Part shown: positions 2,092-28,315 of the stretch, in pieces
Position numbering within the stretch: the stretch's first letter is position 1
How the letters are laid out: each line of letters starts with the position of its first letter
Assembly: GCA_030065755.1 (NCBI GenBank)
Contig: JASJDA010000008.1
Location: 1 to 54,378, forward strand
Length of the DNA: 54,378 nucleotides
Reading direction: 5' to 3'
Origin: Prochloraceae cyanobacterium
GTDB taxonomy: Bacteria > Cyanobacteriota > Cyanobacteriia > Cyanobacteriales > JASJDA01
Position numbers and translations under genes: made by a program
The notes under the pieces: model-generated
Seen by the model: only the letters and a program-made list of their open reading frames with translations
Told to the model about the DNA's origin: nothing
Database searches by the model: none

Positions 2092-4110
2092 ATGGAATTA
2101 ACCAGTACCTACAATCCTACTTTAGTCAGTTTTTCCATATTTATTGCGGTGATAGCGGCTTATACCGCACTAGAACTGACTGAAAGAATTAGCGAGAAAG
2201 GAAAAATCAAATTAAGTTGGCTCATAGGTAGCTCTTTAACTATGGGAACAGGGGTTTGGGCGATGCATTTTGTGGGAATGCTAGCTTATAGTATTGGAGT
2301 GCCCATTAATTACGATTTAACTACAGTTATAATTTCTTGGTGTCCGGCAATTATCGCTTCAGGGATGGTTTTTTACTATCTCGAACGAGGATTTAACAAT
2401 TGGTTTGAACTTTTGTGGGCTGGGACTTTGATGGGGTCTGGCATTGGTGCAATGCACTATATCGGTATGGTGGCGATGCGAGTTCCAGCAGTAATGCACT
2501 ACGATTACTCTGTAGTAGCTTTATCGGTAGTGTTTGCAGTGATTTTATCGAGTGTCTCACTAGCAACAGCCAACTTTGTGCTCAAAAAATTTAAAGAGCG
2601 AGAAGAAATGAAAATAGCAGGTAGTTTCCTGATGGGAACAGCCATTAGTGGAATGCACTATATCGGAATGGCAGCAGCACATTTTACTTCTAGCAGTTTG
2701 ACTCCAACCCGCTCTAGTATACGGATAGCTGATACAGGTTTAGCTTCGACCATCGGCACAGTCACGATCATTATCATTTTTGCCGCTTTAATGGCTTCGA
2801 TGAGAGAGCAAAAAAAAGATCTCCAACTAATGACCAAAAAGTTACAGAACTCTTATGGTCTTTTAGAAACAGTCAATCAACAGCTAGAACAAAGAGTAGA
2901 AAAACGCACCGCCCAACTCAAATTAGCCAAAGAAGCGGCAGAAGCAGCCAATCGAGCTAAAGAAGATTTCTTAGTGAATATAAGTCACGAACTGCGCACC
3001 CCACTCAACACCATCAATGGCTACACAAAAATGCTGCTGCGCGCTCCTAATCTCGACCAATCCCAACAGCTAAATTTGCAAGTAGTCAAACAAAGTGGAA
3101 CTCATTTATTGACTCTGATTAATGACATTCTCGACTTTTCTAAAACCCAAGTCAATAAAATAGAATTAACTCCAGCTCCGTTGCACCTACCTTCTTTTCT
3201 CTCTGAAGTAATAGGAATGTTTGAGATACAGGCAAAAGAGAAAGGTATTGTTTTAGGCTATCAAAGTGATTCGGACTTGCCAACAGGAATTGTGGCTGAT
3301 TCTAAACGACTGCGACAGGTTTTACTCAATCTCTTAGGTAATGCCATCAAATTTACTGACATTGGCTCGGTGAATTTCAAAGTGAGCAAACTGCCAAATA
3401 CTCTTGTTAACTCCCATCAAATAACCATGAGGTTTGAAGTAAGTGACACAGGGGTTGGCATGAGTAAGGACGCACTCAGTAAAATCTTTCAACCCTTCGA
3501 ACAAGTAGGCGATCGCACCAGTCGAAATAAAGGAACCGGTTTAGGTTTATCTATATCGAGTAAATTAGTTGAGTTGATGGGAAGTAAGATCTGCGTAAAA
3601 AGCGAATTAGGAAAAGGCACGACATTTTGGTTTGACGTAACTTTTGATCTAGTGCAACTGAAAATAGACCAGCAAAAACAGCAGCTCAATTTATCAAAAA
3701 TAGTAGGTTATCAGGGAAATCATCGCGTCCTTTTAGTCGTAGACGATCGGAGCGAAAATCGAGAGCTTTTACGAAATATTCTCACCCCGCTCGGTTTTAA
3801 AATTATTGAGGCTACTAATGGCAACGAAGGATTAGAAAAGGCAATAGATGGCAAACCAGATTTAATCTTGACCGATTTAATGATGCCACATAAAACGGGA
3901 ATAACGATGGTTTTAGATCTCAGAAAAATACCAGAATTGAAAAATACACCCATTATTGCTAATTCTGCATCCAGCTTAGAAATAATGAAGAAAAAAGGTC
4001 TAGATGCTGGATGTAATGTCTTTTTACCTAAACCCATTGATGAAGATAAATTACTTCTACATTTACAAGAATATTTAAATTTAGAGTGGATTTATAAAGA
4101 AAACAAGTAA
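2092..4110 (+). CDS. MHYT-domain hybrid sensor histidine kinase with C-terminal receiver
   Basis: A membrane sensor kinase of 672 residues. Residues about 8-240 form the MHYT sensor: several transmembrane helices carrying three M-H motifs (WAMHFVGM, AMHYIGM, GMHYIGM), which in this family are proposed to bind copper and to sense oxygen, CO or NO. A coiled linker follows (about 240-290), then the dimerisation/phosphoacceptor helix with His299 (SHELRTP), the ATPase domain with N box (NAIKFTD), G1 (DTGVGM), F and G2 (GTGLGLSI) boxes, and a C-terminal receiver with phosphoacceptor Asp595 (LTDLMMP) and the conserved Lys (PKP). All catalytic motifs are intact, so it should be active and able to pass phosphate to its own receiver. 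No output gene is adjacent; the partner is presumably encoded elsewhere. Confidence 0.92.
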   Translation: MELTSTYNPTLVSFSIFIAVIAAYTALELTERISEKGKIKLSWLIGSSLTMGTGVWAMHFVGMLAYSIGVPINYDLTTVIISWCPAIIASGMVFYYLERGFNNWFELLWAGTLMGSGIGAMHYIGMVAMRVPAVMHYDYSVVALSVVFAVILSSVSLATANFVLKKFKEREEMKIAGSFLMGTAISGMHYIGMAAAHFTSSSLTPTRSSIRIADTGLASTIGTVTIIIIFAALMASMREQKKDLQLMTKKLQNSYGLLETVNQQLEQRVEKRTAQLKLAKEAAEAANRAKEDFLVNISHELRTPLNTINGYTKMLLRAPNLDQSQQLNLQVVKQSGTHLLTLINDILDFSKTQVNKIELTPAPLHLPSFLSEVIGMFEIQAKEKGIVLGYQSDSDLPTGIVADSKRLRQVLLNLLGNAIKFTDIGSVNFKVSKLPNTLVNSHQITMRFEVSDTGVGMSKDALSKIFQPFEQVGDRTSRNKGTGLGLSISSKLVELMGSKICVKSELGKGTTFWFDVTFDLVQLKIDQQKQQLNLSKIVGYQGNHRVLLVVDDRSENRELLRNILTPLGFKIIEATNGNEGLEKAIDGKPDLILTDLMMPHKTGITMVLDLRKIPELKNTPIIANSASSLEIMKKKGLDAGCNVFLPKPIDEDKLLLHLQEYLNLEWIYKENK

Positions 4111-4208
4111 ACAGTAATTTACAGCCATCGGCGCAGTTGAAAGCCCACCTTACTATTACTATCAATTCATAGAATCGGGGCTTCGATTCTGAGGGTTTGA
4201 GCCTCGAA

Positions 4209-4255
4209 TCTCACGTTTTTAGTGACGCTAGGAACGGAAACGTGGGAGTAGGTCA
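4209..4255 (+). mobile_element. possible IS200/IS605-type right-end hairpin remnant
   Basis: The arms TCTCACGTTT (4209-4218) and AAACGTGGGA (4238-4247) form a 10-bp stem with one G-U pair and a 19-base loop, preceded by GAA and followed by GTAGGTCAA. This GAATC-hairpin-GGGAG-GTCAA layout resembles the right ends of cyanobacterial IS200/IS605 elements. No transposase or TnpB frame remains nearby, so at most a solo end is left. The assignment rests on memory of the pattern only. Confidence 0.3.
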
Positions 4256-4361
4256 ACAAGAATTATCTGGGATGACACAAAACCAAGCTATCGCTCCCTC
4301 AATCATTATCTGAAGCAGTAGTATACTCAAATTACAAAAGCTCTGAGGAAAATTAACTCCA

Positions 4362-24946: not shown

Positions 24947-25729
24947 TCATCCTAAAGACAATTGAAACAGTTGACAAGCGTTATTGGTTGTTTCTCTTGC
25001 TAAACTCTCTAATGAAGTTTGCCTTAAAGAAGCTAGGTATTCGGCTACGTAACGCACGTAGGACGGCTCATTTCTTTTTCCTCGCTTGGGTACAGGAGCT
25101 AGAAAAGGACAGTCTGTTTCTATTAACAAGCGATCGCTCGGGACTAAGCAAGCACTTTCTTTAATTTGCCGAGCATTTTTAAAAGTAACTATCCCGCTAA
25201 AACTAATATAAAAACCCAAATCTAAAAACCATTTTGTTTCTTCTGGCGTCCCTCCCCAACAGTGCATCACACCTCTAACTGGTCCGCGCTCTCGCCAAAA
25301 ATTTTCAAATAGTTCTCGCAAGGGGGCTGCTGCGTCTCTGCAGTGAATGATGACTGGTTTGTCTAGTTGTCTGGCTATCTCTAACTGTGCTTGTAATACT
25401 TTCTGTTGTTGCTCGTAATTATCAGCTTTATATAAATCTAGCCCCATTTCCCCTATTGCCACTACTCGCGGATCGGATTTGGCAAGTTCTAGAATTCGCT
25501 CGGCTGTTTGAGATGTCCATTTTTCACAGTCTAGAGGGTGCAGTCCTACTGCAAAAGACAACTCTGAAAATTTATCGGCTATTGCTTGAATGCTTCCAAA
25601 TTCTGTTGGTTCTACACAAGAGTGTACTAAATGAACTACCCCTGCTTCTTGCCAACGTTTCTGTAGCAAGATTAAGTCTTCTTGAAAAACATCAAAATTG
25701 ACGTGGACGTGGGTATCTATTAGCTGCAT
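24947..25729 (-). CDS. tatD: TatD family metal-dependent deoxyribonuclease
   Basis: 260 residues, a TIM-barrel amidohydrolase-fold nuclease. The metal ligands are visible: the N-terminal DTHVHV (HxH), the glutamate in IGEMGLDLY, the histidines in PVIIHCRDA and VMHCWGG, and the aspartate in [11 protein letters not shown]. The family trims 3' ends of DNA and may act in DNA repair or turnover; it is cytoplasmic. The gene lies between rpsT and rpoB, an arrangement that I recall as common in cyanobacteria. No motif is missing. Confidence 0.93.
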
Positions 25730-25868: not shown

Positions 25869-26162
25869 TTAGGAAGGTACTGCGACTTTTTTCAACGCTC
25901 TTGCTAGACGGGCTTTTTTCCTAGCACCATTATTGCGGTGTAGCACTCGACGTTTTACTGCTTTATCGATTTTGCTGTAGGCATCTGACATAGCTTTTTG
26001 TACCTGCTCCATTGTTTCTGGAGTTGGAGTTGCCGTGTAGTCTTCTACTGCTTGAAAGTATTTTTTCATCAAAGTTCTTACCGCTGATTTGTAAGCTTTG
26101 TTGCGCAGGCGATTGCGCTCGTTGATTTGGATGCGCTTAATTGCAGATTTTGAATTTGCCAC
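25869..26162 (-). CDS. rpsT: 30S ribosomal protein S20
   Basis: 97 residues, basic and helical, starting [21 protein letters not shown] and ending in the conserved [20 protein letters not shown] block. It binds 16S rRNA early in 30S assembly. The start codon is GTG (complement of 26160-26162) with only a weak ribosome-binding site, which could reflect the translational control known for S20 in other bacteria (inference). It is first in the rpsT-tatD-rpo block, 139 bases before tatD. Confidence 0.96.
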
Positions 26163-26467: not shown

Positions 26468-27790
26468 ATGCTGCGAATCATTACTCAGCTTGCTGAGGCA
26501 AAAACCGAACTAGGACGAATAGGAGAGCGCGCCCGCGACGAGCAGATAAAAATCCCAGAGGCAGCAGTTAGGAACATCCTAGAAACCGTAAAGCGCCAAG
26601 GGAATAAAGCACTCCTAGATTACGCAAAAAAGTTTGACTGGGGACAAACTCTGAGTCTTGGGAATATGCGGGTTAGCGGCTCGGAATTAGATGCTGCTTA
26701 TCAACAGATATCAAAAGAGTTACTCGATGCCATACAGCTAGCCAAAACCAATATAGAAGCTTTTCACAAACAGCATCTTCCCCAATCTTGGGTACAATTC
26801 GAGGAAGACAATGTCGTATTGGGCAAGCGCTATACTCCGGTGGATAGAGCAGGAATATATGTACCTGGAGGGATAAAATCCTATCCCAGCACGGTACTCA
26901 CGAACGCTATACCTGCCAAAATTGCTCGCGTGCCTCAGATTGTCATGGTAACTCCACCAGGAGGAGTGGACTCAAAAATTAATCCAGCTGTCTTAGTAGC
27001 TGCACAAGAAGCAGGGATCGAGGAGATTTATCGAATAGGAGGAGCGCTGGCGATCGCTGCTTTAACCTACGGCACTGAAACTATCCCCAAAGTAGACGTA
27101 ATCGCTGGAAAGGGAGATATTGAGGTGGCGATCGCTAAAAAATTGGTCTACCCTACTGTGGGGATCGATTCAGTCGGAGGACCTCCAGAAATAATAATTG
27201 TCGCCGACGATCAGGCAAATCCTCAAGTACTGGCAATAGATTTACTAGCACAAGCAGAACAAGATCCTATGGGTGCGGCAATCTTATTAACTACAAGTAT
27301 GTCTTTAGCTAAAAAAGTTCAATATGAAGTAGAAAAACAACTAGAAAACCATCCCAGCAGGATACCTACGGAAAAAGCGATCGCCCACTACGGTTTAGTT
27401 GTAGTGGTTGAATATTTAGAAGAAGCTGCCGAACTATCAAATCTGTTTGCACCACAAAAGCTGCAATTAGAGGTTGCCGAGCCTTGGGAATTACTCGAGC
27501 AAATTCGCCACGCTGGGGCTATTTTTTTAGGCAACTCTACCCCCAAAGCGGTAGGAGATTATTTGGCTGGACCAAATAGCAATCTACCAACTTCTGGGTC
27601 AGCACGTTATGCTTCTGCTTTAGGAGTAGAATACTTTATCAAACATTCGAGTTTAATTGAATACTCTAGCACTGCTCTCAAGAAAGTCTCTAGTGCTATT
27701 GAAATTCTCGCACTAGCAGAAGGCTCCCATTCTCTTCTTCACTCAGTGCGCGCGCGATCGCAGAGGCAAGACAAACAGATAGATAAATAG
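26468..27790 (+). CDS. histidinol dehydrogenase family protein lacking catalytic residues
   Basis: Over 440 residues the fold matches HisD: RAGIYVPGG, YPSTVLTNAIPAKIA, VDVIAGKGDIEVAIAKKLV, VGDYLAGPN. However, the residues that make HisD an enzyme are changed. The zinc ligand block SQAEHD is AQAEQD (His to Gln265). The catalytic Glu-His pair in APEHLEL is Gln330-Lys331 (APQKLQL). The substrate His in NHVLPT is Ser371 (NSNLPT). The C-terminal ligand His in EGLxAH is Leu423 (EGSHSLL). GPSE is GPPE. Only Asp364 survives. I infer a pseudoenzyme; the working hisD should be elsewhere in the genome. It should not be annotated as an active histidine biosynthesis enzyme. The gene is followed 99 bases later by usp. 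Confidence 0.85.
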   Translation: MLRIITQLAEAKTELGRIGERARDEQIKIPEAAVRNILETVKRQGNKALLDYAKKFDWGQTLSLGNMRVSGSELDAAYQQISKELLDAIQLAKTNIEAFHKQHLPQSWVQFEEDNVVLGKRYTPVDRAGIYVPGGIKSYPSTVLTNAIPAKIARVPQIVMVTPPGGVDSKINPAVLVAAQEAGIEEIYRIGGALAIAALTYGTETIPKVDVIAGKGDIEVAIAKKLVYPTVGIDSVGGPPEIIIVADDQANPQVLAIDLLAQAEQDPMGAAILLTTSMSLAKKVQYEVEKQLENHPSRIPTEKAIAHYGLVVVVEYLEEAAELSNLFAPQKLQLEVAEPWELLEQIRHAGAIFLGNSTPKAVGDYLAGPNSNLPTSGSARYASALGVEYFIKHSSLIEYSSTALKKVSSAIEILALAEGSHSLLHSVRARSQRQDKQIDK

Positions 27791-27889: not shown

Positions 27890-28315
27890 GTGCTAAAGAC
27901 AATTGTCGTCGCTTTAGATAACTCAGACCTATCAGAACAAGTAATCGATTCCCTAATAAATCTCAGAATCGAGCCAGAAACCAAAATAGTCCTCTCTCAC
28001 GTACTTCCATCCCCAGAAGCCACTCGAGATTTGCCCCCAGATCGACCCCATCAATCTCGGGACTCTCTCTATCAGGAAATAGAACAACAGTTACAAGCCT
28101 ATCAAAGCCAACTACCTGGCTCTATGTTAGAAATAACTGAAGGGGATGCGGCTTCGGAAATTATTCGCTTGAGCAATATTCACCAAGCCGATTTAATCGT
28201 ACTTGGCACTCGCGGACTTAAGGGCATAAAGCGGATTGTAGAGGACTCTGTTAGCTCTCAGGTAGTAGCAGAAGCTCCTTGTTCTGTTTTAGTAGTTAAA
28301 CCCAAACAAGTTTAA
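27890..28315 (+). CDS. universal stress protein (UspA family)
   Basis: The 141-residue protein starts at a GTG preceded by a GGGGG tract about nine bases upstream. It has the Usp fold: an N-terminal TIVVALDNSDLSEQV strand-loop and a C-terminal ATP-binding-like segment GTRGLKGIKRIVEDSVSS. The usual G-x2-G-x9-G-S/T motif has Asp in place of the last Gly, so nucleotide binding may be weakened. The protein is cytoplasmic. The stop overlaps the start of the next gene (TAATG), which shows translational coupling with the phosphatase. Confidence 0.88.
   Translation: MLKTIVVALDNSDLSEQVIDSLINLRIEPETKIVLSHVLPSPEATRDLPPDRPHQSRDSLYQEIEQQLQAYQSQLPGSMLEITEGDAASEIIRLSNIHQADLIVLGTRGLKGIKRIVEDSVSSQVVAEAPCSVLVVKPKQV

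Follow-up and report, generated by a model that had tools for sequence, protein, structure and literature searches.

Loss of active-site residues from the native histidinol dehydrogenase of cyanobacteria is linked to a second, type B HisD

The native histidinol dehydrogenase (HisD) of a Prochloraceae cyanobacterium has probably been displaced by a second HisD, lost catalysis and been kept for a non-catalytic job. Its gene lies in a stretch of 54,378 nucleotides (the window) of a genome of 8.46 Mb that is 96.6 % complete. Genomes of the survey are labelled G with a number, the window's own genome being G000, and families and genera are given as f and g numbers (f5.g22, for instance). The native cyanobacterial HisD is designated type A, the second HisD type B and a third HisD type C; genomes with and without a type B HisD are called B+ and B-, respectively.

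The frame begins with an ATG and encodes 440 amino acids, and the opposite strand in register is full of stops. The whole protein is matched by Pfam PF00815 (494 bits), and it scores 461 bits with NCBIfam TIGR00069 (cut-off 243.8). As both cut-offs are passed, an automatic pipeline would label the gene hisD, just as the original prediction had expected. The residues were read by alignment to the solved HisD 4g07 and from a multiple alignment, and are given next to E. coli numbers (Q259, H262, E326-H327, D360, H367, H419):

26468-27790, forward strand: native HisD orthologue (type A) without catalytic residues, 440 amino acids
27047-27049, forward strand: Leu194 codon; a universal HisD Gln in orthologues
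27110-27112, forward strand: Lys215 codon; the Pro of the GPGN motif in orthologues
27251-27253, forward strand: Gln262 codon; kept zinc ligand (E. coli Q259)
27260-27262, forward strand: Gln265 codon; in place of a zinc ligand His (E. coli H262)
27455-27460, forward strand: Gln330-Lys331 codons; in place of the catalytic Glu-His (E. coli E326-H327)
27557-27559, forward strand: Asp364 codon; kept zinc ligand (E. coli D360)
27578-27580, forward strand: Ser371 codon; in place of the substrate His (E. coli H367)
27734-27736, forward strand: Leu423 codon; in place of the zinc ligand His of the other subunit (E. coli H419)

The five replacements that had been named beforehand (Gln265, Gln330-Lys331, Ser371 and Leu423) were all confirmed by the two alignments, and the replacement of key catalytic residues claimed with them stands; that most zinc residues had been replaced was an overstatement, since two of the four ligands (Gln262 and Asp364) remain, both His having given way to Gln and Leu. 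Other universal HisD positions are altered as well (Q194L, P215K in the GPGN motif, S240P and E333Q), the GPGN region presumably being part of the cofactor site, and some pocket positions are kept. Judged from these residues, the protein would be a HisD fold without an active site: it fits the family profile but lacks the Glu-His pair, the full zinc set and the substrate His of a working histidinol dehydrogenase. A structure prediction made without an alignment reached a pLDDT of 37.5 and was hence not used, and a search for a signature confined to native and dead copies produced just 6 positions, too few for a claim.

The window protein is homologous over its whole length to canonical HisD (E. 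coli 1k75/1kae, 4g07; PF00815, TIGR00069), and its gene occupies the hisD locus native to cyanobacteria; unlike canonical HisD, it is devoid of the Glu-His pair, the substrate His, two of the four zinc ligands and parts of the cofactor motif. The DHPS 3-dehydrogenase HpsN (8v35, 8wwe) belongs to the same fold family. HpsN is reported to require Glu-His, Asp and the motif G-R-Y-[AS]-H (PMC11382572), whereas the corresponding stretch of the window protein is GIKSY. An HpsN-like function was ruled out by this motif and by the Gln-Lys found for Glu-His.

Identity to the window protein is 74 % for the intact copy of the genus-mate G300 and about 70 % for the intact HisDs of many families, and the tatD-rpsT-hisD locus is the same in most families inspected. 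Identity and shared locus together indicate that the window gene is the native HisD and not a separate dead paralogue. The neighbours in question are:

24947-25729, reverse strand: tatD-like hydrolase (name by recognition), conserved neighbour of rpsT and hisD
25869-26162, reverse strand: rpsT (ribosomal protein S20; name by sequence recognition), divergent neighbour marking the native hisD locus
27890-28315, forward strand: universal-stress-protein-like gene (name by recognition), downstream and also found beside many intact hisD copies

In the tree, the protein is placed in an open, poorly resolved fork with G300 and intact orthologues. A distinct dead branch of the family had been proposed; the window gene is instead an orthologue of the usual HisD at the same locus, and the supposed branch turned out to be many separate deaths of the native gene in type B lineages. 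The second HisD that the genome had been predicted to contain was found: G000 has two PF00815 matches, the window gene and a type B gene on contig C135. The more general statement that cyanobacteria have two HisD homologues does not hold for the phylum, as 144 of the 169 genomes with a HisD match (among 291 scanned) have one and 25 have two. It does fit Synechocystis, for which a review mentions two putative HisD isoenzymes of undetermined function (PMC7133116). These two are probably the same pair as seen here, a dead native copy and type B. All f5 genomes in which the native copy was read contain this combination, and f5 appears to include Synechocystis. Two further forms of HisD were noticed: an in-frame insertion of about 25 residues near residue 167 in native copies of f51 with intact key residues (L201, L202), and a HisD match within a 1001-amino-acid open frame of a distant member of the phylum (G016:C19:6165-7364), possibly a fusion.

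At a threshold of E ≤ 1e-120, 55 of the order's 340 genomes, dispersed among ten families, contain type B, which is 37 % identical to the window protein. At the eight key positions (E. coli 259, 262, 326, 327, 360, 367, 414 and 419), all 46 aligned type B sequences have Glu, His, Glu, His, Asn or Thr, Ala, Glu and His. The copy of G000 (P0002) keeps H262, E326-H327 and H419. The departures from the canonical set are Q259E, D360N or T, and H367A, which leaves no substrate His; because they affect zinc and substrate residues, we can only infer that type B is active. The Asn form is present in 62 and the Thr form in 17 of 80 named type B loci from cyanobacteria, Chloroflexota and Desulfobacterota, one locus being incomplete. 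In four small f5.g32 genomes with HisG and HisB, type B is the sole HisD-family match (E ≤ 1e-20). It is also the sole PF00815 match in five Chloroflexota genomes with HisG, whereas cyanobacterial type B coexists with the native copy. The type B cluster of G000 contains a HAD hydrolase and HisC, which scores 321 bits and thereby exceeds the TIGR01141 cut-off; by similarity, the same set is located beside type B in G296, G311, G356 and G187, and in G311 and the Chloroflexota contigs of G557 and G558, HisG and a HisS/HisZ-like gene are part of the cluster too. In all likelihood, these cells make histidine with type B as their working HisD.

In the type B tree, the cyanobacterial copies form one clade beside those of Anaerolineae, one record excepted, which fits a single entry followed by later spread. 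The transfer would have come from a Chloroflexota-related source. The copies of the two groups also share the key residues EHEHNAEH and a neighbouring gene, c1, which is treated below. The excepted record (L270, labelled Pleurocapsa minor GSE-CHR-MK-17-07R) has a type B among those of Anaerolineae and contains c1, while native HisD was looked for in it and not found; its label may be wrong or the record a mixture. At L235, L250, L269 and many other Anaerolineae loci, type B has a conserved upstream neighbourhood made up of genes for an aspartate-semialdehyde dehydrogenase and a UDP-sulfoquinovose-synthase-like protein. In Desulfobacterales HSG16 (L260:2-2908), a HAD hydrolase is fused to a very divergent IGPD-like domain (54.8 bits with the HisB model), followed by HisC and then type B (3001-4272), and the genome has no HisG match.

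Loss of the active site of native HisD is linked to the presence of type B. This was assessed with 139 native copies scored at the eight key positions, type C copies and fragments being left out; the fragments shorter than 380 amino acids (G408, G361, G473 and G393) are intact at the key positions that they reach. Native HisD keeps all eight residues in 90 of 92 copies read from B- genomes, a non-random set composed of the best matches of the phylum and order searches, a few copies from further searches and 47 hand-picked regions, the last 7 of which were chosen for being weak or split; outside the order, genomes of the phylum scan with a single HisD match were counted as B-. Both exceptions (G168 and G185) carry a type C HisD. 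With such conservation in B- genomes, the losses in the window protein cannot be put down to chance. In B+ genomes, the native copy is intact in 1 of the 47 copies read, that of G187 (matched to Pseudanabaena sp. lw0831), which is a counterexample. The 55 B+ genomes of the order comprise 44 with a native copy that was read, 4 without a copy and 7 (all f5.g22) with a match only, absence having been judged at E ≤ 1e-20 and presence of type B at E ≤ 1e-120.

Fisher's test of intactness against type B gives p = 3e-33, uncorrected for relatedness. Well-supported independent pairs behave as expected in 4 or 5 of 6 cases and in the opposite way in none (sign test, median p 0.0625); this relatedness-aware test does not reach 0.05. 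The tree used for the intactness test requires 10 changes of type B status and 11 of intactness. The midpoint-rooted tree in which the window protein was placed needs 7 changes of type B status, 2 of which are forced by well-supported branches; the midpoint root, which puts the fast-evolving f5 at the base, was given no weight. In f11, f12 and f42, dead copies group with intact ones from the same family, and the replacing residues in the multiple alignment vary between families. The youngest losses concern one ligand each: G440 and G341 lack only H262 and G356 lacks only H419. As G356 and G440 belong to the same genus (both were matched to Symploca) and have each lost a different ligand, decay is visible here at its start. 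Two of three Acaryochloris bins with type B have a dead native copy, and none was seen in the third.

Type C HisD has the canonical residues and is 44-47 % identical to the window protein; it was seen at L108, L138, L139 and L181-L194 (f6). The native copy of type C genomes is dead in G168, carries D360Y in G185 and is intact in six others read, while in G545 no native HisD was found. Among B- genomes, native HisD is split over two frames in G473 (L203, one contig), and no HisD match at E ≤ 1e-20 was found in G362.

The dead copies are under constraint. Pairwise dN/dS, which handles neither saturation nor branch-specific rates, is 0.06-0.15 for dead copies in 24 of the 35 within-genus pairs listed (at most six per genus). 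Values by genus are 0.11-0.13 in f5.g182, 0.125 in f5.g184, 0.065 in f50.g124, 0.02-0.08 in f5.g186 and 0.06-0.22 in f5.g22. The range is 0.02-0.11 for native copies that are intact in B- genera and about 0.01 to 0.16 for type B in the genera of the dead copies. Outliers are f5.g5, whose dead copies have diverged most (0.26-0.33, with a high dS), and f4.g153, where the dead copy gives 0.14-0.80 and type B 0.45 at a dS of 0.01-0.03, which makes the sequences too close to judge. The window protein and that of G300 give 0.142, a pair that spans time before the loss. The frame is open over at least 400 amino acids in all 44 native copies fetched from the order's B+ genomes, those of G513 and G404 being shortened at one end. 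Full length and purifying selection together suggest that the dimer of native HisD has a further task for which catalysis is not required; a separate role, which the original prediction had considered, is made likely by this selection. The native copy was not found (E ≤ 1e-20) in 4 of the 55 B+ genomes, all f5.g32, three of which were matched to diatom endosymbionts (Epithemia, Rhopalodia). The retained role thus seems to be dispensable in such symbionts.

A dead copy without any function, decaying so slowly that no stop codon has arisen yet, would account for the piecemeal loss of active-site residues, differently in each lineage, and for its absence from the four f5.g32 genomes, one of which has a 35-residue possible HisD relic, below the family cut-off. 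This is an unlikely explanation, because the fetched frames are all open and genera with a loss common to their members have a dN/dS far below 1; the window gene itself has neither a broken frame nor a dN/dS of about 1. Just as unlikely is that the dead protein forms heterodimers with type B and regulates or stabilises the working HisD. Retention of the native copy in 51 of the 55 B+ genomes would agree with such a partnership, and mixed dimers are conceivable since HisD-family dimers share the zinc site across subunits (PMC11382572). However, type B does without a native copy in the four f5.g32 genomes and in the five Chloroflexota genomes, it seemingly comes from another phylum, and its identity to the window protein is low. 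The continuing constraint and the kept pocket positions would also suit a new enzyme that has gained another chemistry and another active site, but this is less probable still, as residues that differ from family to family are not what one shared active site would leave. That the native copy is still a histidinol dehydrogenase by some unusual chemistry and type B does something else, as the missing canonical D360 and H367 of type B might suggest, is very improbable given that the native copy has lost its Glu-His pair and two zinc ligands while type B sits in his clusters and is the only HisD seen in four genomes that have HisG and HisB.

Displacement followed by retention for a non-catalytic job thus remains the best explanation. 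The window gene would be the ancestral histidinol dehydrogenase gene of the cell after displacement. A Chloroflexota-related type B gene in a his cluster would have entered several cyanobacterial lineages and taken over histidinol oxidation, upon which native HisD, freed from catalysis, would have lost residues for zinc, catalysis, substrate and cofactor independently and in a different way in each lineage, while mostly being retained at full length under purifying selection. Residue loss combined with selection would suit a pseudoenzyme, and the job that remains is most likely a non-catalytic one: the dimer may act as a scaffold or sensor, most likely one to which a small molecule or another protein binds as partner.

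In G000, c1, a gene for 408 amino acids (contig C135, L308:11342-12568, forward strand), follows type B. It lies within 3 kb of type B at 38 of the 80 named loci, some of which are incomplete, and was found together with type B in 17 of the 340 genomes of the order (G000 and 16 others). The HisB dehydratase (PF00475) was searched for in G000 and not found. Across the order it is absent from 22 of 340 genomes, namely from all 17 with c1 (G483 and G510 were read by subtraction and then confirmed by a second search) versus 5 of the 323 others; these five are the drafts G201, G410 and G448 and two genomes of 1.4-1.5 Mb, from which HisG is missing as well. An assembly artefact could explain the gap in single drafts but is an unlikely cause in all 17 genomes with c1. 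Of 56 selected genomes, 27 contain c1, and HisB is absent from all of these except G187 (26 genomes); among the other 29, HisB is present in 27 of the 28 that were searched for it. Type B occurs together with HisB but without c1 in the fifteen core f5 genomes tested, so c1 is not required for the displacement of HisD.

A model of c1 (407 residues, pLDDT 89) aligns over 306-318 residues with the APH-fold kinases 5-methylthioribose kinase, PsiK and LxmK (Z 17.8-20.8, rmsd 4.4-5.3 Å); it differs from these in its low identity (10-13 %) and in its location in his clusters. No PDB chain was found by a search with the c1 sequence. K66, HGD 240-242, N247 and D261 are invariant in 20 c1 sequences and correspond to the APH-type kinase motifs (Lys, HGD...N, FDP). 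The score with the APH profile PF01636 is 20.4 bits, under the cut-off of 23.2, and the APH-type kinase fold is predicted from the model and the motif residues. Aminoglycoside resistance was not assumed, the fold being common to many small-molecule kinases. Genomic complementarity makes c1 a strong candidate for an unrecognised replacement of HisB. Since LxmK serves as kinase in the lexapeptide dehydratase complex (LxmKY), one might guess that c1 brings about dehydration through phosphorylation followed by elimination. A tentative extension, which we hold to be doubtful as a whole, is that in cyanobacteria and Anaerolineae a borrowed module of type B, c1, the HAD hydrolase and HisC makes histidine without HisB, with c1 replacing the dehydratase, perhaps by phosphorylating the hydroxyl, which would leave as phosphate, and with native HisD surviving through a second, non-catalytic role that it has always had. 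If true, c1 would rewrite one step of a textbook pathway and bear on HisB as a herbicide target.

In the openly licensed literature, no pairing of "histidinol dehydrogenase" with "pseudoenzyme" was found, and the titles and abstract openings of the papers listed contained nothing on replacement of HisB, on transfer or displacement of HisD or on loss of its active site. The results presented above could explain why Synechocystis-like cyanobacteria have two HisD isoenzymes, of which the copy at the native locus should not carry the annotation histidinol dehydrogenase. They also describe a natural experiment that has been repeated, in which catalysis was probably lost in members of ten families of one order and in Acaryochloris while the protein was mostly kept. 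Such repeated loss with retention points to a hidden second function of HisD.
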